A DNA stretch of 29,691 bases from a virus. A program made the translations under genes and the position numbers. Of this stretch, positions 5,101-25,220 are shown one piece after another. Position 1 is the first letter of the stretch, and the number at the start of each line of letters is the position of its first letter. The DNA lies in IMG/VR virus record IMGVR_UViG_3300034284_001100, positions 1-29,691 of that record; one strand, written 5' to 3'. The notes under the pieces were generated by a model. The model worked only from the letters and a program-made list of their open reading frames with translations. It ran no database searches and was not told where the DNA came from.

Positions 5101-5874
5101 ATATGTATCACCTTTTCCTCCTATATAAAAACAAGAATCTATTTTTATATTTACCGTAGCGCTTGTAATATATTTATTTTTAACATAATGAGAGAAATTA
5201 CGCGCTTTATTCTTTAAAAATATTAGATTTTTATATAAACCAATTTCTGTAGAATTGGTAAATGGGTCGCCAATATATTTTTGATCTAAGCCATTAAAAC
5301 TGGCTATACCAGGATCTTGATCTAAATCATACACTTTAGAATCATATGTATATACAGAACTAGATATATCATTAAAATTATTAACTTCATTACCTAAAGA
5401 TAAATTAAAATTAGCAGCAGTTAAATTCAACAAATTTGTCTTTTTATCTTTTACAGATATATCATTATAATAAACACCATATGCCAATGAAGAGCTTCTA
5501 TCTTTTATAGAAGAGCTTAAATCTATATAATTAAGAGTATTTCCATCTTGATCAACAAGACCCTCAATTGGCCCTTCACATAACAGATCATTGCTTTTAT
5601 AAAACGATTCTGTATCTAAAGTTGAATTTGCAGATGGAAATTCAGAAGCCAAAGATAAAATATTAATCAAATCTTGTTCAATATATATTTTTACTGTATT
5701 TGTGGGTACAAAGCTTGTTGAAACGGACGTATTATTTGAAAAAGAATTTGGATTAGAGCTAGAATCACCTTGTTGAACAATTGTGTTTGATCCAATTGCA
5801 GAAGAATAATCTCCTAAATTTTCTCTTTCCATGTCCTCAAGCAATTTAACTGGTCTATAATCTGTGGCTCCCAT
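2146..5874 (-). CDS. Lambda gpJ-like tail tip attachment / central fibre protein
   Basis: This is a 1242-residue hub protein at the end of the tail. Family hallmarks are EGPIEGLVD near residues 100-108 (the hub signature of the J family), the segment around 757-800 (KYQAERIGKWFLTTGKLE followed by an IGDIVRVAD loop) and a fibronectin-like unit near 1050-1085 (LYRIIGVNESS...ITALKYSPEKF). Between about 870 and 1030 there is an extra beta-rich domain (ISYDGNYITFYLNGKSL) resembling concanavalin/laminin-G-like sandwiches, which many J proteins lack. Length is close to lambda J (1132 aa). The start is ATG at 5874, directly after the stop of the I-like gene, and the K-I-J order is as in lambda. J proteins carry host specificity. 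Family assignment is firm; the lectin-like insertion is a fold guess from pattern. Confidence 0.9.
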   Translation of the reverse strand: MGATDYRPVKLLEDMERENLGDYSSAIGSNTIVQQGDSSSNPNSFSNNTSVSTSFVPTNTVKIYIEQDLINILSLASEFPSANSTLDTESFYKSNDLLCEGPIEGLVDQDGNTLNYIDLSSSIKDRSSSLAYGVYYNDISVKDKKTNLLNLTAANFNLSLGNEVNNFNDISSSVYTYDSKVYDLDQDPGIASFNGLDQKYIGDPFTNSTEIGLYKNLIFLKNKARNFSHYVKNKYITSATVNIKIDSCFYIGGKGDTYGNNIRFVVCVTNLTERVTNYFYFQAYFVAKGNPVIIPIQIQFNRAANLSSNSPEYLINVYSVEKRITAFGEKNRTATNNSRSFAVDSIVEKVDYAFSYPYSAVCQNIVSAKHFSNIPVRSFDCKLLKIKVPNNYDPDAREYVGDWNGDFSKLLRWSDNPAWIFYDLCVNGRYGLAKSSMSESDLNKWELYRISKYCDELVITNAATKYKEDVFQFDNSILLNQTDYNTITFTSIENLNTLQTRYPEKSILYLYDLKNELNESININFKKIILSVNKVGNTVKIKLCNDFGVRKFIESDISGRFYNSLKQYISGNPSVLNTEDNAKNYAISYLANISNPVNNQYNSSSEQVSVSYRNEKIFDNSLKVASGKCVAKHPEYDDFLEPRFSANIYINDATEGLKILTDLSSVFRGIFYFKNGLLNLNSDVKKPTSYVFTNSNVKDGFFNYTSSNLESSFSVAKVSYLDKKDNFKDKVVYIEDANLIKKYGLIEKEILGFGITSKYQAERIGKWFLTTGKLESQTVTFTTGIEATLLKIGDIVRVADNLKNSKLEFGKITALDFKNNYVYIDREMKNDVLGKRIKVLSIVGDETLESTLSIFEANNSDLRLTLLPYDYFSWNLKNKTVSTNNGRTLSSDFVSAAAWDKKAFTAQSYIDNCLLSFKVEFTSSILVCGLSSKNIVINDSTDIEYGFYINSGNLLGIFPGHTDIGSAFNFGKTITSSDLLSISYDGNYITFYLNGKSLTDQIGRPKGNPLLAVAAFNTQFTTINEIIFSRYPLPSYGSFSNLRADANFSIYLENDAEQEDLYRIIGVNESSTNDYGITALKYSPEKFEVVDKNEYVDENQYNKKQIVFATDDYIRPAFSDSIINNNIKQTTLSFVEANNTNFDYSFNIETEVLTDSFNLSNYLSIEINFITLFSRLDNSPYVYGIYCTIIKDGKVLKFKQFKNEASKVSIFLGDNITLQNSSGVSFDVDLYAFDSNMRLINV

Positions 5875-5875
5875 A

Positions 5876-6388
5876 TTAATTATTATTAATTTTATTTGTT
5901 AGATTTACATCATTAGCTATAACAATACTGCCTATTTTCAATCTTCCATAGCCAATTGGAATAGCAACATTTCTTTTAGTCACGTTTTCATAACCTGAAA
6001 ATAATCTTGAATTATTTTTGATATCTTTTGGAGCTTTTGGAGTCATTAAACTCGTTATCAATATCTGTATACCTGTTGCTATCGCTATTAAAAGAACAGC
6101 GATTAATATATCAATACCAGCAATCGCAGATCCCAATATTAATGGCACAACTTCTATTTTTGAATCTTTTTTTAGTATTGGCGAACTAAAATATTCATGA
6201 GAAACTGGTTTATCATCAACGTATACAATAAAATGAGTTAAATATTCTTGAAAATTTCCTAAAGCCTCTAATAATTTACCACTATTTGCTTCGATTGCTT
6301 CAAATCCTTCAAAAACAGTTTTGACATTTAAATGCCATTCTGTTTTTACATAGTTTTCAAAAATACCATGTAATTTGATATTAACCAT
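5876..6388 (-). CDS. Lambda gpI-like tail assembly protein
   Basis: This 170-residue protein has three visible parts. Residues 1-80 look like the ubiquitin-like beta-grasp domain of the I family (HLNVKTVFEGFEAIEAN, ending SKIEVVPL). A hydrophobic, glycine/alanine-containing stretch follows at about 82-113 (GSAIAGIDILIAVLLIAIA). The C-terminal segment is RNVAIPIGYGRLKIGS, typical where I leads into the J hub. Position between the K- and J-like genes supports the call. The I protein is needed for tip assembly; the hydrophobic segment may take part in membrane passage, which is inference. The gene starts 3 bases after the K stop and ends 1 base before the J start. Confidence 0.85.
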   Translation of the reverse strand: MVNIKLHGIFENYVKTEWHLNVKTVFEGFEAIEANSGKLLEALGNFQEYLTHFIVYVDDKPVSHEYFSSPILKKDSKIEVVPLILGSAIAGIDILIAVLLIAIATGIQILITSLMTPKAPKDIKNNSRLFSGYENVTKRNVAIPIGYGRLKIGSIVIANDVNLTNKINNN

Positions 6389-6391
6389 ATA

Positions 6392-6730
6392 TTATATTAT
6401 TTTACACTTCTTTTCTTTAAAGATGTTATTAGCAACATCATACATTATCATATCTAAATTATGATATTTTTGATAAAATAAATCTGTTTCTGAAAAATCC
6501 GAACCAATTGGATGACTGTGAAAATAGTATAATATTTTATAATTATTTTTTATAGATAGGTAATCTTTTGGTGAAATTAAAACATGAGCATTTTTTTCTG
6601 GATGCTTGTTTTCAATAGATATAAATTTAACAAATCCTTGATCTTCTACAATAAATCCACACACTTCCTCTTCTGTAAAAGTTTTAGAATATTTTCGCAA
6701 TTGATTATATATTTCAGGTTTTAGATTCAT
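6392..6730 (-). CDS. Lambda gpK-like JAMM (JAB/MPN) metalloprotease, single domain
   Basis: With ATG at 6730 the protein has 112 residues (MNLKPEIYNQ). The frame can extend to a TTG at 6763, but that adds 11 residues inside the L-like gene and matches nothing in the family, so ATG is preferred. The zinc-protease motif is visible: E22 in EEEVCGFIV, then H71-S-H73-P and S80..D83 (HSHPIGSDFSETD). The canonical JAMM spacing is HxHx(7)SxxD; here there are six residues between H73 and S80. Lambda K joins a JAB domain to an NlpC/P60 peptidoglycan hydrolase domain. Here only the JAB domain is present and no hydrolase follows. The gene overlaps the 3' end of the L-like gene by 17 bases. A role in tip maturation is inferred from lambda. 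Confidence 0.88.
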   Translation of the reverse strand: MNLKPEIYNQLRKYSKTFTEEEVCGFIVEDQGFVKFISIENKHPEKNAHVLISPKDYLSIKNNYKILYYFHSHPIGSDFSETDLFYQKYHNLDMIMYDVANNIFKEKKCKII

Positions 6731-7760
6731 TATTATATGGAAATGTAGCTGGAAACGCTCCAAATGGCAAATAAGGCTTACCTTGTGTTAAAGAAGTATT
6801 ATTATTGAATCTTAATCTACAGCCCCTTAAAGTTCGCGAGCATTTATCTTGCTTCCAAACGTCTGTATTATTTAATGGATTTTTATTAGTATTAGCCTCG
6901 ATACAAACAAAATAGTTTTTTGGTTTATTAAGAGATACTAATACCGCTTCATTATTTTCTAAATTAGTATCTGAAATAGCATCTAAATATATAAAATCTC
7001 CAACAGCATATGATACATTTGACAACCATTCACCTTTATAAGTTAAAGAAGTTAAATTATAACTACCATTATACGGCAAATCATATAAATCTCCCGAATT
7101 TGTATCATTTATTTTTTTGACAAAAACCTTATCATTATCATCAGCTACTGGAACTCCTAAATATGTATTAAATCCTCCACCAATCGTAAAAGGCATTATA
7201 GGACCAGAATAATTTTTATTATTGCCATAATTACAACCATAACATCTATAATTCCACGAACAAGTATCATTTGTTATTTTTCTTGCTGGTATAGACAATG
7301 TTTGAATATCAACTTTAGTAACCAGTTCAAGCTCAACAACGTTAAGATTTTCAGATAATTTTGCATTTACTATAAATTTATCAAAAGCAATGTAAGTATT
7401 AAAATTAGATATGCCATAAGGATTAATCCCATCTTCAAAATTTCTAGAATCAAGGTCTCTTGCTAATATTTTTTTTCTATTACAGTTTTTACCTATGAGA
7501 TCATTTCGATCCTGCATTATTTTTGAGAAATAATTATTAATATTACCTATTTGCAATTTTGGTCTACTTTGCCTGCCATCAGAATTTGTTTCGTATGAAG
7601 AAAATTCACATGGAATAAAAGTATATTCTTTTCCTTGAAAAAATATATTTTTATTAAAATTCTTAGATCCATGAAATCTTAAATAGCCTTCATTCGCTTC
7701 TAACTCTATTTCAAACAAATCTATTATTACATAATTATTAAGTTTAAATAGAGTATTCAT
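6714..7760 (-). CDS. Lambda gpL-like tail tip protein with Fe-S-type cysteines and CBM-like insertion
   Basis: This 348-residue protein matches the L family in layout. An N-terminal beta domain (residues 1-160) is followed by cysteines at 167, 173 and 176 (CSWNYRCYGC), then C307 and C314 (KCSRTLRGC), and the ending LPFGAFPATFPYN. Lambda L is known to hold an iron-sulfur cluster through conserved C-terminal cysteines, so a cluster here is likely. Between the two cysteine groups, at about 238-304, sits an extra unit reading YKGEWLSNVSYAVGDFIY...NYFVCIEANTN...VWKQ. This resembles the small carbohydrate-binding modules CBM5/12 (aromatic strand, YxxGDxVxY, YxC.....N). The stop of the preceding gene overlaps the ATG (TAATG). 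Lambda order L-K-I-J is retained. Confidence 0.85.
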   Translation of the reverse strand: MNTLFKLNNYVIIDLFEIELEANEGYLRFHGSKNFNKNIFFQGKEYTFIPCEFSSYETNSDGRQSRPKLQIGNINNYFSKIMQDRNDLIGKNCNRKKILARDLDSRNFEDGINPYGISNFNTYIAFDKFIVNAKLSENLNVVELELVTKVDIQTLSIPARKITNDTCSWNYRCYGCNYGNNKNYSGPIMPFTIGGGFNTYLGVPVADDNDKVFVKKINDTNSGDLYDLPYNGSYNLTSLTYKGEWLSNVSYAVGDFIYLDAISDTNLENNEAVLVSLNKPKNYFVCIEANTNKNPLNNTDVWKQDKCSRTLRGCRLRFNNNTSLTQGKPYLPFGAFPATFPYNNESKT

Positions 7761-14992: not shown

Positions 14993-15892
14993 TTAATTTA
15001 AATATCCTTTGTAATTAAGTTTTACACTTAAAATATCATCCGCATTTGAACTAAATTCCTGAGTAACAAGTTTAAAATTATTAAATGATTGACTAAATAT
15101 TGTTACACCAACTAATTGCCTAGCTACAATTAAATCTCCCAAACCAACATCCAGGTCTTGATTTAAAGCTACCGATAACTTTTGATCTTCAAAAACCATT
15201 CCTTTTATTAATAAAGAAAATGAAGAATCAGTATCATTATTCAATTGTTCATATAATTTTTTTGCAGCATAATCATCTACCTCAAGATTAAAACTAACAT
15301 TAATTTCAATAGGTAATTCAGATAAAACTTCATAAGGTATATAATTATTAGTACTTTGTAAAATATAAACTGGTTTTTTAGGACAATTTATAGAATAATC
15401 AAAACTAGTTATTCTATTTGAACTAGAACCACTGCAAGTTATTGTAATATCTTTAACTTGAGGAACCGTCATATATCTTGTTTGTCTAGTTCCATATGCA
15501 GAATAACCAGATCCTATATCTCCAAATACCTGTATATTAGCAGAGGTTTGAGGAATATCTCCAACTGAACAAGATAAGCCAAAAGAATTTAAATAACCAC
15601 TTTCAAAACCAATTGATTTATTATTGTAATTTATACTACCAGCGAATGATGGCGCTTCTAAATTATTTTTTTGACCTGTATAGTTTAATAAAGGCTCATT
15701 ATATAACAAATATTTATTTATATTAAATTCAGCAGTTGGTACATCAGCTATAACTTGTTTATTGTAACCATAGCCTATTGTATTTATTGGACCATAGTTA
15801 ATACTATAAGATCCATCAACTGATATAACACCAGATATAGCTTGACCATCAAGATAAAATATGTTTTCGTAATTAAGTATTGCGTTTTTCAT
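14993..15892 (-). CDS. Tail-tube-like distal tail / hub protein (299 aa)
   Basis: This gene follows the tape measure gene with a 2-base gap, the usual place of a distal tail protein. Its residue pattern resembles that of the major tail protein at 27243-28487. SGYLNSFGLSCSVGDIPQTS parallels NGFISEYSFDASVGAIPTAS. RITSFDYSINCPKKPVYIL followed by LPIEINVSFNLEVDD parallels HIQSFQFTIPLSRTILQRL followed by VPINMDITISAIVSE. I infer a duplicated tail-tube fold that forms a ring at the tube end, as in the distal tail proteins of other siphoviruses. No enzymatic motif is seen. Confidence 0.6.
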   Translation of the reverse strand: MKNAILNYENIFYLDGQAISGVISVDGSYSINYGPINTIGYGYNKQVIADVPTAEFNINKYLLYNEPLLNYTGQKNNLEAPSFAGSINYNNKSIGFESGYLNSFGLSCSVGDIPQTSANIQVFGDIGSGYSAYGTRQTRYMTVPQVKDITITCSGSSSNRITSFDYSINCPKKPVYILQSTNNYIPYEVLSELPIEINVSFNLEVDDYAAKKLYEQLNNDTDSSFSLLIKGMVFEDQKLSVALNQDLDVGLGDLIVARQLVGVTIFSQSFNNFKLVTQEFSSNADDILSVKLNYKGYLN

Positions 15893-15894
15893 TA

Positions 15895-18800
15895 TTATGC
15901 TTTTCTAGTACCAGCCAATGAACCACCGAATCTTTGTTGATCGCGAATAACATCAAGAACTGCTCCATATATTCTATTATTAAGATTATTAGATAATTCA
16001 ACATCTTGTTGTTTATAAGAAGTATTGTTCGCGCCCATTTGAATATTACCATCTCTATTTACTGTGGTATTAAAATTAAATGAATTACTAGCATTACTAT
16101 TATTAACAGTATTAGAATTATTAGCAACTGGGGACATTCCACCAGCTTGCATTCCTGTACCATATTTTTTAACAATTGGTGAATTATACAATCCACCCTC
16201 CATATAACCGGGAATTGTATCAGATAAACGAGAACCAATTAAACCACCTGTTTGACGACCATATCCAGTAAAACCACTAAATCCTGTTCTAACAACTTGA
16301 GGCCCAATATAAACACCACTTGGACTTAATAAACCTTTATTCATAAATCCTGTAATAGAAGATGATTCTGCTGCTGTTAAAGGTGCGCCTTGTTGTAATT
16401 TTTGAGACAAATTTTGAGCTTTTCCAGCTTTCACGTTAGCCATTTTATTACTTATTCCCGCACCAATTCCAGCAACAGCAACTGCTGCTGCCAAACTACC
16501 AACCATTTGCGCGGTTTGAGCTTGTCTTGCTCGTTTTTTCTGACGAGCTTCTTCAGCTTTTCTAATCTCCTCATCACGCAATTCTTTATATAAAGAACTA
16601 TTTTCAAGACCAAAAGTAGTCATACCATCTTCCATAGCTTTAACATTGCTTAATTCTGCGCTAAATGATCCACCACTTGCGAATCTTGGTGCAGCAGAAA
16701 AATTTAAAGTGTCAAGCGCGGCTGGTCCACCCATTGCCATAACCGCATTTCTATTTAATACATATTCACCATTCTCAAGCATCGCTGGATATTTATCTCC
16801 AGATCCAGTTCCTGAAACATACATACCCGATTGTGCGCGTACAACACCACCTTTTTGAGCCGTAAATAGACTTTCAATTCCTGATCCACTTATCAATTTT
16901 GAAACACCAACTTCCATTAATCTACTACTAATAATATCTAAGAAATTAGCAGCAACACCTAAAAGAGCATCGCCTAAATTATCTGTTTCTTTTACTGCTG
17001 CTTTGATGGCATTTACCATTCCATCTCTAAAAAGCGCTGGAGTATCTCTAGCTAATCTATTTAAACCGGTATCAGCTTCATCTCTTAAAGCGTCAAAACC
17101 TTCTTTGAATCCATAAACTATAGAAGTTGATCTTTTAGCATTTCTCAATTCTTCGTTATTAAGGCGTTTTGTTATTTCTTCTTCTTTTAGTTTGCCATTA
17201 ACAATATCGTTTTGAACAGTCTTTAATTTTTCTAATGTTCTGACTCTTTCATTTTCTAATGTTGGATCGGCAAATGGACTTTGTTGTAATTGAGATATAG
17301 CTTGAGATAGTGTTTGACTATTTGTTATATCTATAGATTTTATATTTCTAGCTTGCTCTCTTAAACCGATAGCTTGCATTGGACGACCCTCAAATTCAGA
17401 TTGAGCGGCCATTTTTGTTAAATTAGTTTGTTGTTTTTCGATTAATGATTGATAATCAGACTGAGCAGACTTTGATCTACTAATTTCTAAATCAACAAGT
17501 TTTTTTGTTGTTGTTTCATTTCGTAATGCAATTTTAGATTCAGCTTTTCCTATAACTCCTCTGCCTAGAAAATTACCTTGATCGGCCATTTTTCTTTCGA
17601 TAGCGTCTATTTCTAATTCAGAATTTGTTTTTCTAGTAGCCTCGATTCTTTCTTGATCGCCTAATAATTGAATTTGTTTTTGCAATAATGTTGCTTGAAA
17701 CTCTGTAGTTTTTGCGCGTATTTGTTCTACACGACCTTGTAAATCTGTTAATTTTAATTGATTGACATTGCTTCTATTTTGTTTGTCTACTGATCTGTTA
17801 AATTCTTCATAGATTTTTTTTAAATCATTAATAATTGCGGGATCAAATGGGCTTGGCCCTGTAATCGAACTTTCTTGTAATATCGCTTGAAGACCTGAAA
17901 GATCTCCAGTTTGCGCTTTCTCTAATGCTGGTCTTATCTTACTTTGAATAACTTCAGAACTAGGATTTAATTTTAAAAATTTTTCTTGATTTTCTTTTAC
18001 GAAATTTAAATTTAATTCTGTTAATTTATCTTGACCTTCTGATATTGTTTTTGTTCTTTGAGTTTTTAATTTTTCTGTAGCTATAGATAAAGGACTAAGA
18101 ATACCTTCTGCCAATGAAAATTTAAAATTATTTATTTCATCTAAAAGCTTTCTGCCAAAATCATCTTGTTCTAATTGCGCATTTGCTTCGCCTATTTGTT
18201 TTAAAATAGATGAACTTAAATCATTTCTTAGTTTTAATAAATTACCTTCTTTTCTAGCATTTTCTATAATATTATTTATAAATTGATTTCCAGAAGATAA
18301 CTCTTTTAAAATTTCCTCCTTATCTTTTCTAAGCAAGAGTTCAAGAATAGATTCTTGAAAAATTTTTATTTGTTCTGCCGTGCCTTTATTTCCAATTGTC
18401 GATTTAGCTATATTCTCAGCTAATCGTTTAGCAGCATTTGAACTCGCTTCGGTAACAACTTCAATTTCTTCAGGGACCGTCTCTTGACCAGGAATTATTT
18501 CAGGCATTATTTTTTCTCTTTGTAATTTAAAGGATTGAAGTTGATCAAACAAATCTTTATTTAATCCTAAAGATTTTAATTCTTTAACTCTTTCTCCAAT
18601 CTGAACTCCCCCTTGAGTTTTTCCACCTTTAACCCCAGAAGCAAAAGACAACGCAGCAGTTAATATATTTTTATCAGTTTCGTACTTACTCAATACAGAA
18701 TTTAAAGCTTCTACTCCACCTTTTGTTTTGCTCAGTTCATCTGCTAATTTAATATCTGTAATTTGATTAAATGATTCTGATAAACTTTTACTAGCTAATT

Positions 18801-21800
18801 CTAATTTATCAGACGAAGCGCCAGAAGCTAAAAGTTTTGCATATTCTTGTTGAGCTTGAATATATTTTTGACCAGCAGAAATATTTTGTTGACTATTTTG
18901 TCTTTGATTATCAGCCATTTCAGCAAGATCTTCAGCACTTAATTCTGCTGCATTTAAAGCAGAAACGAAACCAACTAAAGCTCCAGTAGCAGCACCAACT
19001 CCTGCACCTATTGGCCCAAAAGCTGCACCAATACCAGCACCTGTAGAAACAGCGCTCAATCCAGTGCTTAAACCCGACTGAAGAGATCTTTCAGTAGCTG
19101 TCATTTCAGTTCTCTTTTTATTACCGAAAACAGCTTGTTCCGCAAAACCTGCGATAGTAGGACCAAGAATTGCTATTGCCGTACTAGCTTTAGATAATCC
19201 TTCTGAAAGTTTATCGAATCTATTATTTCCTTTAGAATCGCTTGTGTTTATTTGTTCATTATTTCTACCTTTTTTAAAAGTTTGTTCTCTTAAACTTTTT
19301 ATCGCATCTATTCCAACACTTGATACTGATGAATCAACTTCAGAAAACATTGATTTTATTTTATCAACTGTTGATCTATAAGTCTTCTTAACATCTCTTA
19401 AAGCTTCTTTAGCGTAATTTTCAATATAACTTTCTACTTCAACAGCATTGGAGCTTGATTGAGTATTTTGAGTTTGATTTTTTTTACCTTGCTTTTTTGG
19501 AGCAAAATTTGGAATATATCCTTTATTCATCAATCCAGCATTCTTCTGTCCTCTCATTGAATCACTCAAAGCATTTCCTAAACCACCATGATCAGCAATT
19601 GCGGAACTAAATGTTGGCTGACTACTGTTTCTAATGTGTGGGAAAGGCTTGGTATCGAATATGGCTTTTTCTCCGCTCATGCTTTCTTCTAAGCCCATTA
19701 CTGCTTGTTTATATGCAAAGTTGGGAATAAAGCCTTCACTCAAACCAAACATTCCTTGATCATTAGGATAAGTCTTAGCAAATTCTGTCGCTAATTTACT
19801 AAATACGTCTGGATTATTTAAATTTAAATTTCTTTTCTTTGCTGTTTCTATTAGCCAATTTTTCTGAAAAGAGTTTCTTCCTTTTATGGAATTAAAATTA
19901 GGAATAAAACCTGAAGCATGAGAATTAATCAATTCAATTAATGCCATATCTAATTTTGCGGCATTGTATTTATGACTAGCTATTCCACTTTCAAAATCAG
20001 ACATCGCAATTTCCTTACCATTGATTAAAAGCTTAGAACTCTTAGCCATCTTCGCCCAAGACAATTGAGGAAAAATAGCTTTTGCGGGAATAGATTTGCC
20101 GCTCGCATAATCCGCCAAAGCTTGTTCTTGTGGTAATAATACAGATTTAATAGTACTGCCAGAACCAATTTTTTCAGCAATGTTTCCATATAATTGAGAC
20201 CCTAATCCTTGACCTCTAAATTTTTTACCAACTTCAACGCCTTCGATTTCATAATTATTTTTGCCTGTTTTTATTGCCGATATATTTCCTTTTCCTTTTA
20301 TAGAGGAAGATATCATTGAAGCAAAATTAGGAATAAAACCTCCATATGTAGTATTTTTCTTAGCTTCGTATCTTCTTAATAAACCATCAGTAACTTTTGT
20401 AAGTTTTGCGCTTATTGATGGATCAACATTTGAATACTTATCTTTAACAATTGATGCAGCGGCCATTTCAAATTCGCTGAAATTTGCACCAGCATTTCTA
20501 CCAGTAGGATCAGTAAATTTTGGTCTATTTGAAACAGCAATCATTGAGCTAACTTTCTTAGCTAATACTGGATTTTCTTTTTCGAGATTTGCAAGTTTTT
20601 TATTCATGAATCCAGTGACTGACCCAGAAACGTTTTTGAAATCTTGTTTCAACTCTAACATGCTATATGAACCATCAGCAATTCTATATAATAAATCAAA
20701 ATCATTCTCATTTGCTATATCGCTTACAGGTTTATTTTTAAATCCAACTTCTGATGGTCTTATTACTTTTTTTGAACCTAAAGCTATATTTAATGCAGAT
20801 CTAACAAAGTCTTCATGCAAGTAAGAAAGCATGTTAGCATTTCCTTTTTTAGCGTATTCATGATCTGAACCTCTTCCATAAGTAGGAAAATCTCCCATCT
20901 TAAAAAGATCTGTATCACCAGTAGCATTTTTATATTTACTAGAATATTTTTTGAACCAAGGAATACTTGCAGTAGTCATTGGTGTAGCAAAATTAGGAAT
21001 AAAACCAGAACCATATACTCTATCTTGAGCAAATTGCATCTTTATTTTTCTTCTTAAAATAGGATTAAAGTCCAATTCAGAAACTCCATTTAATAAAGTC
21101 TTTTTAGCTGTAGTGTTTAGACTAGAAATAGAAGAGGTTTCTATTTGTTTTGGAACATCTGAACCTTCACCAATAATTTCTGTGTATCTTGGACGAATAA
21201 ATAAATCTCCTAAAACATCTGGTTGAGAAATGATAGAGGTTTTATCATCAATTTTTAATCTTTTTGTTTTTGATCCTTGTTTTGGTGAATAAGCGTAATA
21301 ATTCTGACCTATATGATTAATAACTTTACTTATATTTTCTGCGCTGGTATGCCCTAAACCAGAGTGTGCATCAGCAAAAGTATTCGATTGATATAGTTTT
21401 GGATTAAAATTTTTATTTATTGGTTTTTCTAAAACCTCTTTAAAATCTATAGGTTTATTGCGAGAAGGAGGAACTTTAATATCAAATCCAACAGATTGTT
21501 CAAATGCCCTACCTACTGAAAATTGAGATGGACTTTTTTTAACAAAATTAGGTATAAATCCATTAAACATATATGGATCAACACCTGTTCTACTTATAGC
21601 ATTTTGTCTATGTGCGCGACCAGCTTTTGATCCAGCAGGAGGATTAATAAAAGGTTGAGCAAAACCGGGAATATATTTAACATCTTCCGCAGTATTCATT
21701 ACTCCACCAACAGGAGACGAAACAACTCTGCCGGGAGCGTAGCCACCAGCTTGTGCGCCAACTACCTCTGCCATTCTTGTTGCAGCGGGAATATATCCTC

Positions 21801-23439
21801 CTGCGCGAGTAACTTGTAATCCACCAGATCCTTTTACTCTTACTCCTTGAGTAGCTAATTGAGCGGCTAATTGTTTAGCAAGTGTAGACTGCATTTGATA
21901 TTCTGCTGTCTGTTGTCTGGCTATTTGAAGCAATAATTGTGCTTGCGCTGCTTGGTTACCCATCATTCCAGCAAGAGCTTGTGATGCTGGTCCTTGTTGC
22001 TGCATGATTTGCAAAATAGATTGTTCAATATTTTTTCTATTTTGTGTTTCTGTAGTAATACCAGCAATCTGAGGCAAAGCTTGAGATAGATAAGTAAAAG
22101 AATTCTGTATTAACTTAAAAAGAGTAAAAAATGCAGCAATAGCACCGGGACCAGCTATTACATTTCTAATACCTTTTAATAAACCATTCGCAAAAGTAGA
22201 ACCAACTCCTTCTCCTTCAAGAATTTCATTCATTGATTCAACGAATGATTTTAATTGCTCAGTACCGTATTTAGCCAATGGCTCAAATGTTACTTTGCCA
22301 ATATTATTTGCCAACTGTTGAGTAGAAGTAGCAGTTTGTTTTAGCAAAGCGTCGAGAGTTTGATTTAATTTAGCAGTCGCGATTTCTGCTTCATTTGTTG
22401 CTGATGCGCCTCTTTGTAAAGCACCAGCATATGTACCCTGCGATTTATTTAAATCATTAACAATTGCTTTTAAGATGTTAACTTGATAAACACCCGCAAC
22501 TTGTTCTGACAATTGCGCTCTTTGTGCATCAGCTAAACCTCTGTAAGCTCCAGCAAAGTTTTGTAGTATTTGAACAGCAGGTAAAATATTTCCTTGGACA
22601 TCTCTAACAGAGATATTAAAAGCTTCCAACTGATCTAAAGTATCAGTACGTTGTAAACGAGTGAAAATTGTTTTTAGTGCGTTACCGATTACCGCGCCAC
22701 CTCTTGCTGTGCTTTGTTGAGCTGAAGTAACCAATGCATTCAATTGATCTAAGCTTACTCCTGCTTCTTGAGCCGCTTGGCCTGTACGAGATAATGCTTC
22801 AGCAAGATCACCAGCGCCAACAGCATAATCTTGTTCTACTGCAACTAGCTTATTTAATATTTGAGTTGTAGTAATTCCAGTTGCAGCAAAACCGTTTACA
22901 GTAGAAGTTAAAGCGTCAACTGCATTTGCAGTTCCAATTCCTGCTAATCTTGTTAATGTAAGAGCGTCTTTTGTTCTTTGTAATGTTTCTTCAGCTTTTA
23001 AACCTTGACGAGAGAATTCAAGAGCAGCTTTAGAAGCGTCATCAAATGAAGAAGCTGTTTGTTTAGTTACATTAAATAAATCTGTACTAAATTTTTGTAA
23101 CTGACTGGTGGTTAAGCCGAATACACGATTAATGTCAGCAAGATTTTTTTCTACTTCTATAGTTACATTTGCCAACTCTTTAAAACTGCGAATGACACCA
23201 CCAAGTACAGCAGTAGAAGCTCCGAATGCAATAACGCGAGCATTAGAAGCGGCTAGTGCTGCTTCAAAGTCTTTAACATCGCCCGTCATTCTGCCAAGAG
23301 GCTGAGAGAAAGCTCGCTGATTAACTGTCAAATTAAGCTGGTTATTCTGAGCGAATCTTTGATTATACGCTTGAACACCAGCTTGAATAGAAGCGGTTAA
23401 TGCTGCTTGATTGGCCGCGACATTAATTTGAACTGCCAT
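15895..23439 (-). CDS. Giant tape measure protein with modular insert region
   Basis: At 2514 residues this is about three times lambda H (853). Residues about 60-330 are the conserved core of TP901-type tape measures (VEKNLADINRVFGLTTSQLQ ... ARGGAVIGNALKTIFTRLQR). Residues 545-1315 form a modular region split by six GF/YIPNF motifs at 627, 812, 1034, 1177, 1236 and 1307. The module at 818-1033 carries D913/D915...E929-L-K931, like a PD-(D/E)XK nuclease. The module at 1040-1176 carries R1075-GQGLG, like a GNAT acetyltransferase. After about 1420 come a long Gly/Ala hydrophobic stretch (AAFGPIGAGVGAATGALVG), long coiled-coil regions and the family's C-terminal GEYVLNRNAVMAMGG motif. Tape measures set tail length and are ejected on infection. 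A GTGTAA motif precedes the start by 9 bases. The family call is firm; the enzyme modules are pattern-based. Confidence 0.95.
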   Translation of the reverse strand: MAVQINVAANQAALTASIQAGVQAYNQRFAQNNQLNLTVNQRAFSQPLGRMTGDVKDFEAALAASNARVIAFGASTAVLGGVIRSFKELANVTIEVEKNLADINRVFGLTTSQLQKFSTDLFNVTKQTASSFDDASKAALEFSRQGLKAEETLQRTKDALTLTRLAGIGTANAVDALTSTVNGFAATGITTTQILNKLVAVEQDYAVGAGDLAEALSRTGQAAQEAGVSLDQLNALVTSAQQSTARGGAVIGNALKTIFTRLQRTDTLDQLEAFNISVRDVQGNILPAVQILQNFAGAYRGLADAQRAQLSEQVAGVYQVNILKAIVNDLNKSQGTYAGALQRGASATNEAEIATAKLNQTLDALLKQTATSTQQLANNIGKVTFEPLAKYGTEQLKSFVESMNEILEGEGVGSTFANGLLKGIRNVIAGPGAIAAFFTLFKLIQNSFTYLSQALPQIAGITTETQNRKNIEQSILQIMQQQGPASQALAGMMGNQAAQAQLLLQIARQQTAEYQMQSTLAKQLAAQLATQGVRVKGSGGLQVTRAGGYIPAATRMAEVVGAQAGGYAPGRVVSSPVGGVMNTAEDVKYIPGFAQPFINPPAGSKAGRAHRQNAISRTGVDPYMFNGFIPNFVKKSPSQFSVGRAFEQSVGFDIKVPPSRNKPIDFKEVLEKPINKNFNPKLYQSNTFADAHSGLGHTSAENISKVINHIGQNYYAYSPKQGSKTKRLKIDDKTSIISQPDVLGDLFIRPRYTEIIGEGSDVPKQIETSSISSLNTTAKKTLLNGVSELDFNPILRRKIKMQFAQDRVYGSGFIPNFATPMTTASIPWFKKYSSKYKNATGDTDLFKMGDFPTYGRGSDHEYAKKGNANMLSYLHEDFVRSALNIALGSKKVIRPSEVGFKNKPVSDIANENDFDLLYRIADGSYSMLELKQDFKNVSGSVTGFMNKKLANLEKENPVLAKKVSSMIAVSNRPKFTDPTGRNAGANFSEFEMAAASIVKDKYSNVDPSISAKLTKVTDGLLRRYEAKKNTTYGGFIPNFASMISSSIKGKGNISAIKTGKNNYEIEGVEVGKKFRGQGLGSQLYGNIAEKIGSGSTIKSVLLPQEQALADYASGKSIPAKAIFPQLSWAKMAKSSKLLINGKEIAMSDFESGIASHKYNAAKLDMALIELINSHASGFIPNFNSIKGRNSFQKNWLIETAKKRNLNLNNPDVFSKLATEFAKTYPNDQGMFGLSEGFIPNFAYKQAVMGLEESMSGEKAIFDTKPFPHIRNSSQPTFSSAIADHGGLGNALSDSMRGQKNAGLMNKGYIPNFAPKKQGKKNQTQNTQSSSNAVEVESYIENYAKEALRDVKKTYRSTVDKIKSMFSEVDSSVSSVGIDAIKSLREQTFKKGRNNEQINTSDSKGNNRFDKLSEGLSKASTAIAILGPTIAGFAEQAVFGNKKRTEMTATERSLQSGLSTGLSAVSTGAGIGAAFGPIGAGVGAATGALVGFVSALNAAELSAEDLAEMADNQRQNSQQNISAGQKYIQAQQEYAKLLASGASSDKLELASKSLSESFNQITDIKLADELSKTKGGVEALNSVLSKYETDKNILTAALSFASGVKGGKTQGGVQIGERVKELKSLGLNKDLFDQLQSFKLQREKIMPEIIPGQETVPEEIEVVTEASSNAAKRLAENIAKSTIGNKGTAEQIKIFQESILELLLRKDKEEILKELSSGNQFINNIIENARKEGNLLKLRNDLSSSILKQIGEANAQLEQDDFGRKLLDEINNFKFSLAEGILSPLSIATEKLKTQRTKTISEGQDKLTELNLNFVKENQEKFLKLNPSSEVIQSKIRPALEKAQTGDLSGLQAILQESSITGPSPFDPAIINDLKKIYEEFNRSVDKQNRSNVNQLKLTDLQGRVEQIRAKTTEFQATLLQKQIQLLGDQERIEATRKTNSELEIDAIERKMADQGNFLGRGVIGKAESKIALRNETTTKKLVDLEISRSKSAQSDYQSLIEKQQTNLTKMAAQSEFEGRPMQAIGLREQARNIKSIDITNSQTLSQAISQLQQSPFADPTLENERVRTLEKLKTVQNDIVNGKLKEEEITKRLNNEELRNAKRSTSIVYGFKEGFDALRDEADTGLNRLARDTPALFRDGMVNAIKAAVKETDNLGDALLGVAANFLDIISSRLMEVGVSKLISGSGIESLFTAQKGGVVRAQSGMYVSGTGSGDKYPAMLENGEYVLNRNAVMAMGGPAALDTLNFSAAPRFASGGSFSAELSNVKAMEDGMTTFGLENSSLYKELRDEEIRKAEEARQKKRARQAQTAQMVGSLAAAVAVAGIGAGISNKMANVKAGKAQNLSQKLQQGAPLTAAESSSITGFMNKGLLSPSGVYIGPQVVRTGFSGFTGYGRQTGGLIGSRLSDTIPGYMEGGLYNSPIVKKYGTGMQAGGMSPVANNSNTVNNSNASNSFNFNTTVNRDGNIQMGANNTSYKQQDVELSNNLNNRIYGAVLDVIRDQQRFGGSLAGTRKA
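19504..21561 (-). repeat. Six dispersed GF/YIPNF motif repeats within the tape measure gene
   Basis: Codons for GFIPNF or GYIPNF start at 21561, 21006, 20340, 19911, 19734 and 19521 on the minus strand. The spacings are 185, 222, 143, 59 and 71 residues. A weaker copy, YIPGFA, lies near residue 588. At the DNA level the copies at 20321-20340 and 20987-21006 are identical over 20 bases (gcaaaattaggaataaaacc on the plus strand) and the 19895-19911 copy differs little. The other copies have diverged in third positions, so the peptide itself is under selection. Confidence 0.85.
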
Positions 23440-23467: not shown

Positions 23468-24463
23468 TTATCCGAATATTTTCATCATATCGTCCATGCT
23501 CAAAGAACCACCCTTCTTCTTTGCTTCATCAGCCAAAGAAAGAGTTTTTTGACCTTTTGTCTTTAATCCCACATATTCAAGATCTTCGCTAGTCGCACCA
23601 ACTATTGAACTAGCTTGATTTTCTTTATTGTTTTTATTTTCTATTACTTTCTTAGCGTTTTCATTTGCATTTACATAATCAATAATCTTATCAGGATCAT
23701 TTTTAATATCTTGAGGCATTTTATCATTCTGCTGAAATACGTTCTTGAAAAATCTAGAATAAATAAGTAATTTTACTTGATTGTAAGTCAGTTCGCACAC
23801 TGATTTACCAAAGAATTCAGTAGGATTTTCAGCAAATGGCATATATAAATTAAAAAAATCTTGTAAAACCAAATACTGAATCGTATTGTCATTTATATTT
23901 TTATATACTTCTGAGTATTGTTTTATAATACAAGTCAGCGTTTCTGAGTCGATATTATCAAATTGATCTTCTTCAAAAGCTGGTTTCGATAGGCTTTTAT
24001 CTTTATAAAGACATTTCAAAATATAAAAATCATTAACTCTTTCTTCAGCGTAGCTTTCGGCAGTGCGATTAAAAAAAGAAGCTTTAGTATTTTTAAGATC
24101 GTATAATCGTTTTTGTCCCGATTCTATATCTGTATTTACTCTTTGTATTTCTGATTTTAAATATAATACTTTCTTTTGCTTATTAAGATTATCAATAAAA
24201 TCTTCTTCTTGTTTAATTAACGATTCTTGTTTTGTAGACCATTGTTTTTCTTCAATGAGGCGCTTTAAAGTTTCATCATTAGTAGGAACACCGCGACTTT
24301 TAGCTTCATCAAAATAATGATCATAGATCTGATCGATATCGACCTGATCTTCCAAAGACAAATGCTTTAAATAAAAAAAATTCTCTAAAACTTTTATTTC
24401 AGAGAATCCATTTTTAATATCCCGAAAAGCTTTTTTATACTTATTCTGTTGGGACTGTTCCAT
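23468..24463 (-). CDS. Probable second tail assembly chaperone (331 aa)
   Basis: The gene sits directly before the tape measure gene, where lambda has G and GT. It is a charged, mostly helical protein with predicted coiled coil at about residues 60-120 (EEKQWSTKQESLIKQEEDF). It ends KKGGSLSMDDMMKIFG, a short acidic-hydrophobic tail. Its ATG lies inside the 3' end of the upstream gene (23-base overlap) and has a rare clear ribosome site, GGAG, 6 bases upstream at 24470-24473. Translational coupling is therefore likely. The two frames are related by +1 (or -2), not the -1 shift used by lambda, and I see no convincing slippery sequence. The function is inferred from position and partner gene. 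Confidence 0.55.
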   Translation of the reverse strand: MEQSQQNKYKKAFRDIKNGFSEIKVLENFFYLKHLSLEDQVDIDQIYDHYFDEAKSRGVPTNDETLKRLIEEKQWSTKQESLIKQEEDFIDNLNKQKKVLYLKSEIQRVNTDIESGQKRLYDLKNTKASFFNRTAESYAEERVNDFYILKCLYKDKSLSKPAFEEDQFDNIDSETLTCIIKQYSEVYKNINDNTIQYLVLQDFFNLYMPFAENPTEFFGKSVCELTYNQVKLLIYSRFFKNVFQQNDKMPQDIKNDPDKIIDYVNANENAKKVIENKNNKENQASSIVGATSEDLEYVGLKTKGQKTLSLADEAKKKGGSLSMDDMMKIFG

Positions 24464-25220
24464 CTATTTCTCCAATAATTCTATCGAACTCTTCCTTTTC
24501 TGTATTGCTAGTAAAGAACCAATAACTAATAATACTAGCTAGTTTGCTATAGCACTTTTCATAAATTTCATTTTTATTTTCTTCGTAATCAAACATCGCA
24601 GCTTCCTTGACATCGAACGTCTTGCCGGGAAATAGCCATTCAAATTCAGGATTCTTCTTGCTATTATCCTTAAATTGAGTAAGGTTCAGAACGTACCATA
24701 GAATCGCTCTATTCTGAGCTTTAATGTCTGCGGTATGATTAAACAAAGTCATGTAACTAGTTTCTTTTTCAATTAACGTCTTACGACGCTGGAGAATTTC
24801 TGAAGTTACCTTTTCAATCTTTTGCTTGTAATCTTCATCGCGTTCCGACTCTGGTTTTAGATTAAGAATAGTTAATCTGCTTTGCAAATCTCCAATTTCT
24901 CCAGCGGCAGAAACCATGATCTTAGCATCACTATCGCTAATTAAACCACCAGTATCGCTATATTTATTTAGTAACATCGCCTTTGTCAAAATCCCATTTC
25001 TGATACATCTGCTCATTTCAATACTGAATTCCATATCAGCTTCCTGCATTTGTTTGCGATTTGGTTGAAGAATATTAATCTCAACAGGAATCTGCTTCTT
25101 TACTTTTTCTTTATAAGTTCTTGTTACCTGTTCTCCTTGTTCATTTGTTACTGTTTCAGTCTTATCTTCCTCGACCTCGGCATTTTTAAAAATATTGAAA
25201 CTATATAGAGACTTTGACAT
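24441..25220 (-). CDS. Probable first tail assembly chaperone (259 aa)
   Basis: First gene of the leftward block, starting at ATG 25220 after a 55-base divergent intergenic region. The 259 residues are highly charged. A beta-type N-terminus (about 1-55, KKQIPVEINILQPNRKQMQ) is followed by long helices (EFSIEMSRCIRNGILTKAML; SEILQRRKTLIEKETSYMTL). The pattern 'requires VEINxxxPxxxQxxEADxxYS' is familiar from proteins that precede tape measures in environmental phages, but I cannot name a family. Position directly before a second overlapping gene and the tape measure gene points to a chaperone that coats the tape measure before tube growth. No membrane or catalytic motif is seen. Confidence 0.55.
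   Translation of the reverse strand: MSKSLYSFNIFKNAEVEEDKTETVTNEQGEQVTRTYKEKVKKQIPVEINILQPNRKQMQEADMEFSIEMSRCIRNGILTKAMLLNKYSDTGGLISDSDAKIMVSAAGEIGDLQSRLTILNLKPESERDEDYKQKIEKVTSEILQRRKTLIEKETSYMTLFNHTADIKAQNRAILWYVLNLTQFKDNSKKNPEFEWLFPGKTFDVKEAAMFDYEENKNEIYEKCYSKLASIISYWFFTSNTEKEEFDRIIGEIDGTVPTE

Follow-up and report, generated by a model that had tools for sequence, protein, structure and literature searches.

The Tape Measure Protein and Its Motifs

The stretch of DNA analyzed here, termed the window, is a virus record of 29,691 bases (IMGVR_UViG_3300034284_001100 of IMG/VR), and its most conspicuous gene encodes a tape measure protein (TMP) whose middle part is divided by copies of the peptide G(F/Y)IPNF. 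The minus strand of the window carries a lambda-like tail-tip gene set. It encodes homologues of minor tail protein L (Phage_tail_L, E 7e-36), of a tail assembly protein (phrog_32) and of tail protein J (phrog_31), as well as an open reading frame (ORF) with a JAB domain (E 2e-5, slightly under the Pfam cut-off). The TMP is a very long ORF on the strand common to the homologues of lambda L, I and J. Its PhageMin_Tail domain scored 94.7 bits, above the Pfam cut-off of 33.2, and ten PHROG tape measure families matched the protein at E ≤ 1e-4. Thus, the flanks of the motif region are tape measure sequence, as a preliminary description made from the letters of this DNA had stated.

All six exact copies of G[FY]IPNF in the window sit in the TMP, at amino acids (aa) 627, 812, 1034, 1177, 1236 and 1307. 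A six-frame search for [FYW]IPN[FYW] revealed no copy elsewhere in the window. The span from the first to the last motif is exactly 19504–21561 and the interiors measure 179, 216, 137, 53 and 65 aa. This exact pattern search confirmed the motif positions and module sizes of the preliminary description, which had counted five modules of differing composition. Four of them are cargo, but the fifth (aa 1236–1312) is a conserved core module, named B, and not variable cargo. A further core module, named A (aa 548–632), was missing from that description and precedes the first exact motif. Modules are labeled by their clusters (C or N) and loci by L numbers; HMM denotes a hidden Markov model. The features are as follows.

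15895..23439, minus strand: TMP, 2,514 aa, no cysteine (ORF; PhageMin_Tail, E 9e-27; PHROG families; cysteine count)
22492..23070, minus strand: PhageMin_Tail domain, aa 124–316 (Pfam, E 9e-27)
21544..21798, minus strand: core module A, aa 548–632, beginning with the degenerate motif GYIPAA (HMM of N2, full length, E 1.7e-21)
21544..21561, minus strand: motif 1, GFIPNF, aa 627–632 (exact pattern)
21007..21543, minus strand: cargo 1, aa 633–811, cluster C6/N7, PD-(D/E)XK-like signature (alignment of 8; profile links)
20989..21006, minus strand: motif 2, GFIPNF, aa 812–817 (exact pattern)
20341..20988, minus strand: cargo 2, aa 818–1033, cluster C4/N5, kept within the window subfamily (alignment of 18)
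20323..20340, minus strand: motif 3, GFIPNF, aa 1034–1039 (exact pattern)
19912..20322, minus strand: cargo 3, aa 1040–1176, putative GNAT-like acetyltransferase (GKKFRGQGLGSQLY; Acetyltransf_1 below cut-off)
19894..19911, minus strand: motif 4, GFIPNF, aa 1177–1182 (exact pattern)
19735..19893, minus strand: cargo 4, aa 1183–1235, 53 aa, cluster C8/N18 (4 unique members, 59-aa spacing)
19717..19734, minus strand: motif 5, GFIPNF, aa 1236–1241 (exact pattern)
19504..19734, minus strand: core module B including both motifs, aa 1236–1312, cluster C2/N4 (HMM, E 5.1e-46; hhalign of N0 and N4)
19504..19521, minus strand: motif 6, GYIPNF, aa 1307–1312 (exact pattern)

Exchange of Modules at the Motif

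A search with the whole window TMP yielded 21 loci, and a long motif-bearing ORF was read in 20 of them (L015 ends at the first motif). In these relatives the module boundaries again carry the motif, and the modules themselves differ between close relatives. The module order of the window is C6-C4-C18-C8-B. Among the orders of its relatives are C6-C4-B, C6-C4-C34-C19-C8-B, C11-C4-C19-C8-B, C10-C4-B, C12-C4-C18-B, C20-C4-C19-B and C35-C4-C9-C8-B. Seven clusters (6, 10, 11, 12, 20, 22 and 35) occur in close relatives in the slot between A and C4, so that the slot of cargo 1 is occupied by other clusters there, and the stretch from C4 to B is either empty or holds combinations of six clusters (8, 9, 18, 19, 21 and 34). 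Consequently, the free positions in the window subfamily are a single slot ahead of C4 and a stretch behind it, and C4 and B are constant.

The junctions were compared in 413 pairs with a shared left side (44 label combinations) and 536 pairs with a shared right side (57 combinations; 6 involve a 10-aa spacing), which are pairs of labels and not independent events. Codon identity in the left-shared pairs stayed at about 0.9 until three codons before the motif, was 0.67 over the next two and 0.71–0.99 through the motif, and fell to 0.62 one codon after it and to about 0.3 beyond (0.50 at one codon). The right-shared pairs gave the mirror image, with 0.2–0.4 until the codon before the motif and 0.8–0.99 from there on. 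The aligned DNA of individual junctions agrees with this averaged drop at the motif. Modules are gained, lost and exchanged at the motif with near-codon precision, apparently by recombination at or beside it. The proposal of the preliminary description that the motif marks the boundaries of such additions, losses and swaps is therefore borne out by the relatives and by the codon-level junctions. In addition, 33 of the 92 cargo clusters with both neighbors known occur in at least two neighbor contexts; a cruder count of 47/123 is inflated by contig ends, and 33/92 is the safer figure. Inteins were rejected as no splice residues were seen by eye, and HNH-type homing insertion was rejected as no such family is among the 23 Pfam families listed for the modules.

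An AlphaFold model of aa 545–1320 of the window TMP (22 sequences) had a mean predicted local distance difference test score (pLDDT) of 39.5, which is too poor to judge folds. Comparison of this poor model with the PDB returned no chain with Z ≥ 5, and the result was not used. Structure prediction, the check suggested in the preliminary description for one continuous fold across the array, thus settled nothing. Such a fold is rejected on other grounds, namely that modules come and go independently among the relatives. Since both structure predictions of this study were poor, the modules of the window rest on sequence.

Anatomy of the Protein Family

The 220 proteins collected were divided into 664 modules of more than 40 aa, of which 521 were unique and fell into 126 clusters (67 singletons); duplicate modules were dropped, as were 7 spacings no longer than 40 aa. 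Three clusters are core clusters: A (N2), B (N0) and the window version of B (N4). N0 and N4 were linked by hhalign at 97.3% over 69 columns. The cargo catalogue comprises 359 unique modules in 123 clusters.

The TMPs that include an N-terminal part and one or more modules number 154, a set partly collected with B; 109 of them contain A and 149 contain B. In the TMPs that were collected without B and extend at least 600 aa past the last motif, B is present in 57/57 and A in 41/57. The first motif lies at aa 540–572 or 623–652 in 74 of the 75 ORFs of the set found with B. This nearly constant position fits a fixed insertion place after the TMP head. In 130 TMPs the last motif is followed by at least 600 aa. 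Their cargo number ranges from 0 (3 proteins) to 9 (1 protein), 1 being the commonest (48 proteins), and their open frames extend over 1,287–4,815 aa, some of them cut at the N-terminus. The largest number of motifs in one protein is 11 (L203, 4,099 aa). Motif-to-motif spacings are mostly 57 to 1,249 aa, with two of 10.

The longest open frame, 5,001 aa, lies on a contig binned as Halobacteriovorax. Two loci of one assembly with this binning, L184 and L185, have 8 motifs each in identical module order and open frames of 4,202 and 5,001 aa. In L049 (aa 1353–1363) two motifs only 10 aa apart stand before B, separated by a segment with GLSE, which is likewise found at the end of C8. This spacing is perhaps the scar of a lost C8 module.

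Occurrence of the Motif

A DNA pattern for GFIPNFA matched at least 120 stretches of the viral contigs of IMG/VR. Among the 120 matches listed, which include contigs also found among L001–L021, 44 hold two to four exact copies, 114 have an in-frame ORF of more than 60 aa and 6 have none. The permuted pattern GFPINFA with the same codons served as a control and gave 21 stretches in the whole collection with one copy each. At least two copies of the relaxed motif were present in 102 of the 114 in-frame ORFs of the listed matches, compared to 0/21 control ORFs; the other 12 of the 114 are single-motif ORFs. This permuted-codon control led us to reject chance repeats.

In the set found by the motif pattern alone, 67 ORFs have at least 300 aa ahead of the first motif, and 62 of these match an HMM of the TMP N-terminus built for the window family. 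The expectation that the motif would occur mainly in tape measures is thereby supported. A larger count of 80/85 ORFs includes the window and 17 relatives picked as TMPs, a group of which 12 were used to build the HMM, and the 75/75 matches in L182–L267, collected with module B, are no test of motif confinement. The five exceptions are L035, L063, L097, L104 and L107; PHROGs scans of L035, L063, L104 and L107 gave no match. Neither TMP end was matched by 12 of the 102 multi-motif ORFs, all 12 of which run off the available stretch, nor by 9 of the 12 single-motif ORFs. Single copies of GFIPNFA were seen in long proteins of L035, L097, L107 and L114 beside an AREKxxMPxGAxLAxAN-like stretch that resembles core module B, with no match to the TMP HMMs in the first three. 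To judge by these sequences, the four may represent another branch of the family.

The preliminary description had mentioned similar GFIPNFA strings in the tape measures of environmental phages, and this statement proved right. An alignment of 33 B modules matched 402 stretches of the viral contigs, of which 377 were confirmed as relatives and 80 loci were kept. The same search of GTDB genomes gave 6 loci in binned contigs, with the bins assigned to Flavobacteriales/Flavobacteriaceae (2), Halobacteriovorax (2), Verrucomicrobiales (1) and an uncultured bacterium (1). One module B compared with 50,697 named phage records, from which records very near the window were possibly excluded, found nothing at E ≤ 1. 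Under the same proviso the module regions of L084 (E ≤ 1e-5) and of the window (E ≤ 0.01) had no match in these records. The whole window TMP matched 140 named records, the best 40 of which align only within aa 42–467. The strings GFIPNF, GFVPNF, GYIPNF, GGFIPN and SGFIPN were not printed in the literature searched, preprints and most subscription papers being outside the search; the letters IPNFA do occur there, in nine papers, no title of which concerns phage.

The Motif as a Conserved Peptide

From 211 nonredundant instances with flanks less than 40% identical we derived the consensus A/K-(A/S)-x-G-(F/Y)-(I/V)-P-N-(F/Y)-A. Its information falls to near background outside about −5 to +8. The letters G, P and N are set by the search pattern and the trailing A is favored by the GFIPNFA scan, while A or S at −2 (0.53 and 0.33) was not imposed. 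The motif codons are near the usage elsewhere in the same proteins, with a preference for CCT (0.62 versus 0.36) and ATT (0.65 versus 0.50). Thus, the amino acids are fixed and the codons follow the usage of the proteins, which indicates that the peptide is what is kept.

These data bear on the idea that the motif is a site of recombination in the DNA or a trace left by a mobile element, the peptide itself having no role. The breakpoints do fall at the motif, its codons are somewhat more alike within one protein than expected (0.63 versus 0.55), and CCT and ATT are favored. This mild DNA similarity could be cause or consequence of recombination. Against a DNA site stand the largely ordinary codon usage behind fixed amino acids and the conservation, again as amino acids, of residues flanking the six-letter core. 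We regard a DNA site as very unlikely.

If the peptide is what matters, a protease of the phage or host might cut at it during or after ejection and free the cargo. A sharply bounded and nearly fixed peptide between unrelated domains, present also at the core modules, would suit such a processing site, and a plain linker would need no fixed sequence. However, cutting before assembly would break the ruler, and no accompanying protease was found among the ORFs of the window, the only ones inspected; the JAB-like ORF of the window is of a kind ordinary in lambda-like tails. Proteolysis at the motif therefore appears rather unlikely. Alternatively, the motif may serve for docking or as a hinge: by attaching to the wall of the tube, to a tail chaperone or to further copies of the TMP, it would allow bulky inserts to be packed. 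Even where a TMP has just one cargo module, the motif flanks A and B, and its first copy lies at a nearly fixed distance from the N-terminus, both of which agree with docking; the irregular spacing reported above is unlike a periodic contact with the tube. This possibility is put forward tentatively, and we lean slightly toward a bound or hinge peptide over a cut site.

What the Cargo Modules Resemble

A Pfam scan of 138 modules listed 23 families at E ≤ 0.01, several of them probably by chance. Staphylococcal-nuclease-type SNase in L120 (cluster N9; E 1.9e-8, 35.1 bits versus a cut-off of 21) passed the Pfam cut-off, and this module also matched thermonucleases in the PDB (E 1.7e-4). GNAT in L081 (E 4.4e-7, 30.6 bits; IAA acetyltransferase, E 0.001) and HIGH_NTase1_ass, a cytidylyltransferase-associated region, in L068 (E 1.4e-7, 32.1 bits) were likewise above the cut-off. 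HATPase in L044 (E 7.8e-5) stayed below it but is suggestive, and PcfJ (E 3.1e-7), a CI-type helix-turn-helix (1.6e-4) and ParB_N (0.006) were listed with no cut-offs. The L044 match belongs to an 806-aa module inside the TMP (4334–6769, minus strand) with a likeness to ATPases of the HSP90/histidine kinase type.

Further modules were read by eye. They contain DWDGT, which we take to be a HAD phosphatase motif, DLHG(S/A)N...DPG, presumably that of protein kinases, or P(A/S)GxGK(S/T), assumed to mark P-loop kinases. Cluster N17 had no Pfam match. Its LYRG, SFST and ExEV are conserved in the two aligned sequences and fit LYRG...SFST...ExE, in our assumption the signature of ADP-ribosyltransferases of the R-S-E type. 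A model of L108 modules (8 sequences) had a mean pLDDT of 39.8, with the P-loop module as its sole usable part. The best structural match of this region was adenylate kinase (Z 7.8, root-mean-square deviation 3.5, 107 aligned). With Z under 8, the modeled likeness may reflect merely a common arrangement, and the P-loop sequence profile also matched a designed phosphate-loop protein and many ATPases.

Nuclease-like modules form the commonest class, 155 of the 359 unique cargo modules in eleven clusters being judged PD-(D/E)XK-like. Six of these clusters (N1, N3, N7, N12, N20 and N35) with 106 of the 359 modules are joined by strong profile links. The catalytic-type signature, which we take to be E ... 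D ... (D/E)xK, is present in N1, N3 and N20. In N1 and N3, the two largest clusters, the columns conserved to at least 90% among divergent sequences are G.FE.D.K in 49 N1 modules and G.G.FE.FDF.K.K in 37 N3 modules, and FE, DFP and GDAK are invariant in the 4 sequences of N20. The eleven candidate clusters were compared with 9 control clusters by profile comparison (55 candidate and 27 control pairs). Eight candidate pairs (N1-N3, N1-N20, N1-N35, N3-N20, N3-N35, N7-N12, N12-N20 and N10-N21) reached 76–98%, whereas control pairs reached at most 2.6%. A PD-(D/E)XK family is not among the 23 Pfam families listed for the 138 modules. In L203 (3624–4742, plus strand) an N12 module opens with an apparent repeated helix-turn-helix segment, which is followed by the nuclease-like part.

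In the window, the signature of cargo 1 reads GR.(F/Y)E..VG..DF..F.DA(H/Y). Its cluster N7 is linked to N12 at 95.5% and N12 to N20 at 90.7%, and N7 and N20 are linked directly at only 3.7%. Cargo 1 thus belongs to the profile-linked nuclease-like set through N12. In cargo 2, E..D..K is invariant in 18 aligned sequences and, judged by eye and unconfirmed, is compatible with PD-(D/E)XK. Cargo 3 alone matched Acetyltransf_1 with E 5.7e-4 and 20.6 bits, just missing the cut-off of 20.7, and scored E 0.0021 and 18.7 bits within the whole TMP. The match covers only profile positions 54–88, including RGQGLGSQLY, and the structure model was too poor for a fold. The view of the preliminary description that the modules look like unrelated enzymes therefore holds for several modules of the relatives, which match families, and falls just short for the GNAT-like module of the window.

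Known tape measure enzymes are muralytic. Muralytic tape measures resemble the present family in having an enzyme domain inside the tape measure, but act on the cell wall; the assignable modules here look intracellular, as far as their sequences tell. It could nevertheless be argued from this precedent that the enzymes have their site of action in the virion or the cell envelope, for example during genome entry, and never enter the cytoplasm. However, modules that resemble acetyltransferases, kinases, ATPases and nucleases point to substrates or cofactors of the cytoplasm, and no peptidoglycan enzyme is among the 23 Pfam families listed, so that action confined to virion or envelope seems quite improbable. 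Transglycosylases in tape measures are treated in PMC10194240, and TM4 is among the references of PMC13277306.

Selection, Cysteine Content, and Neighboring Genes

The median ratio of nonsynonymous to synonymous substitution rates (dN/dS) was 0.06–0.43 in 12 of the 13 cargo clusters with usable pairs (17 tried; five rest on one pair). Pairs of unequal length or outside 55–98% identity were dropped. As the median ratio is mostly low, the domains are kept as proteins. The composition of the cargo differs from that of the TMP flanks by more tryptophan, histidine and proline, in a count that leaves out 75 of the 220 proteins as duplicates or for having fewer than two modules.

Both results speak against the modules being structural filler that tunes tail length or stiffness, with enzyme likeness as a relic. 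Such a role would be in keeping with their place in a length ruler, with the wide variation of the frames (1,287–4,815 aa) and with the lack of an enzyme family match for most modules. However, the residues that persist in N1 and N3 form a catalytic-type signature and unrelated enzyme classes recur, and together with the low dN/dS and the deviating composition this makes filler improbable.

Cysteine is nearly absent from the cargo, with 6 in 83,336 residues of unique modules, and from 208 whole or partial TMPs, with 19 in 460,271 residues. The remaining ORFs of these loci that reach 200 aa, a baseline of mechanically called ORFs, contain 0.71% cysteine, and the 16 other ORFs of the window contain 52 in 6,453 aa. 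Among named phages, the TMPs of lambda and Staley and parts of those of 949 and SteveFrench (L272–L275) lack cysteine, and that of FP_Taranis has five in 1,189 residues. Cysteine avoidance is a trait of many tape measures and is obeyed by the cargo whatever its type. From this shared avoidance we infer that the cargo is exposed to the environment of the tail tube and lies tightly packed against neighboring TMP copies, where ejection would be blocked by a stray disulfide.

For the neighboring genes, 8 ORFs of the window were compared with 15 relatives. A 331-aa ORF just upstream of the TMP is 87–98% identical in nine relatives, whose first cargo modules fall into six different clusters, and 46% identical in L019 and L049. 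A 299-aa ORF just downstream was found in 14 of the 15 relatives (not in L049) with 33–100% identity. Where both coordinates are known, the gap to the TMP is about 30 bases upstream and mostly under 15 downstream. These small gaps leave no cargo-specific gene adjoining the TMP in the relatives compared. In the window, the ORFs at 23468–24463 and 24441–25220 (both minus strand) directly upstream of the TMP are conserved; they matched no PHROG at E ≤ 0.01, and no Pfam family exceeded its cut-off. The ORF at 14993–15892 (minus strand) downstream of the TMP had a weak match to a tail tube protein (Phage_tube_2, E 4.6e-4).

A Proposed Protein Delivery System and Its Relation to Known Systems

The exchangeable cassette array in these tape measures is a real, large and ordered system, with enzyme likeness for some of its modules. 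Delivery into the host would best explain the cargo. We consider it fairly probable that the TMP carries an array of exchangeable protein cargo that is packed in the tail tube and delivered at infection. About 540–650 residues from the N-terminus, between A and B, such a TMP holds none to nine cargo domains, each bounded by (A/S)xG(F/Y)(I/V)PNFA and swapped motif to motif. Many domains resemble enzymes whose substrates are nucleic acids, nucleotides or proteins, a likeness taken from sequence and reaching a curated cut-off for a few. The cargo would be packed in the tube with other TMP copies, probably not fully folded. On infection it would exit together with the TMP, fold inside the host and, at an early stage, act against defenses, host nucleic acids or host regulation. 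The motif would be a peptide recognized by a shared partner, either a binding partner or a protease, rather than a DNA site.

Several observations weigh against this proposal. Most modules match no family, only 23 Pfam families being listed over the 138 modules scanned. Profile searches of the PDB with the HAD-like and C5 (N3) clusters found nothing at E ≤ 1, and the only match of the kinase-like cluster, a titin chain at E 0.68, was taken as chance. No strong profile link (36% or less) was obtained for 47 of the 55 pairs of nuclease-like clusters, and N5, the cluster of cargo 2, had no profile link to the other nuclease-like clusters. Cargo 1 of the window may be inactive, because the usual lysine position is histidine in 7 and tyrosine in 1 of the 8 aligned sequences. 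Cluster N12 had a dN/dS of 0.85 from 2 pairs. A phage that produces active nucleases while it infects should suffer from them if nothing restrains them, and beside the TMP no cargo-specific or immunity gene was found in the relatives compared, genes elsewhere being outside this comparison.

Several known systems show a partial resemblance, compared here with the parts available of the publications cited. Polyvalent proteins (Iyer et al. 2017, PMC5512222) of phages and conjugative elements are similar in being large multidomain proteins with changing enzyme combinations that are thought to be injected with the DNA. The search seeds in that study include MuF, P1 DarA/DarB and the N4 virion RNA polymerase, and the term "tape measure" is absent from its main text. 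In contrast to polyvalent proteins, the carrier here is the tape measure itself, in which a fixed peptide separates the domains and core modules A and B are present. The MuF polymorphic toxins (Jamet et al. 2017, PMC5576092; PMC12226406) likewise combine a phage structural protein, variable enzyme domains and a proposed delivery. MuF belongs to the DNA packaging module of temperate phages and has a variable C-terminal domain and immunity proteins (PMC5576092), whereas the cargo here is internal and arranged in arrays, with no cargo-specific gene beside the TMP in the relatives compared. Of the features of polymorphic toxins, constant TMP ends and exchangeable modules were observed, toxicity and trafficking are putative, and an immunity gene is lacking beside the TMP but may lie elsewhere.

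Sle1, a TMP-related effector of contractile injection systems (Nagakubo et al. 2026, PMC13277306), is also tape-measure-like, with an exchangeable functional domain in the tail tube. It differs in belonging to a bacterial contractile injection system and in having one C-terminal functional domain, and a motif array was not met in the passages available. Domain shuffling in phage proteins, with a sequence mosaic signal in tape measures, was described for mosaic phage proteins (Smug et al. 2023, PMC10684548), although its authors state that they were unable to confirm genuine recent mosaicism in tape measures. In contrast to those tape measures, swaps were seen here at near-codon precision. Other near topics are jumbo phages (PMC7824862) and a nuclease meeting tape measures at injection (PMC13190303).

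In its broadest form, which we offer tentatively and which may well fail, the proposal extends to a large group of mostly uncultured tailed phages. Their TMP would be a general protein-delivery cartridge in which a ten-residue peptide marks each cassette and enzymes of any fold, freed of cysteine to permit packing and threading, are swapped between phages. Fired into the host with or before the genome, the enzymes would be set free or unfurl inside it and take over the cell.

The present junctions supply clear cases of tape measure domain shuffling, which a systematic study (PMC10684548) states it was unable to confirm. If the delivery proposal is true, a modular injected-effector platform would be built into a core structural part of phages, and tape measures of 4,000–5,000 residues would be explained. 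The motif would then be usable to find many early effectors in metagenomes, and the travel of enzymes through the tail tube would become testable. The array points to a strategy by which phages in general may transport proteins, exchange them and deliver them into infected cells.

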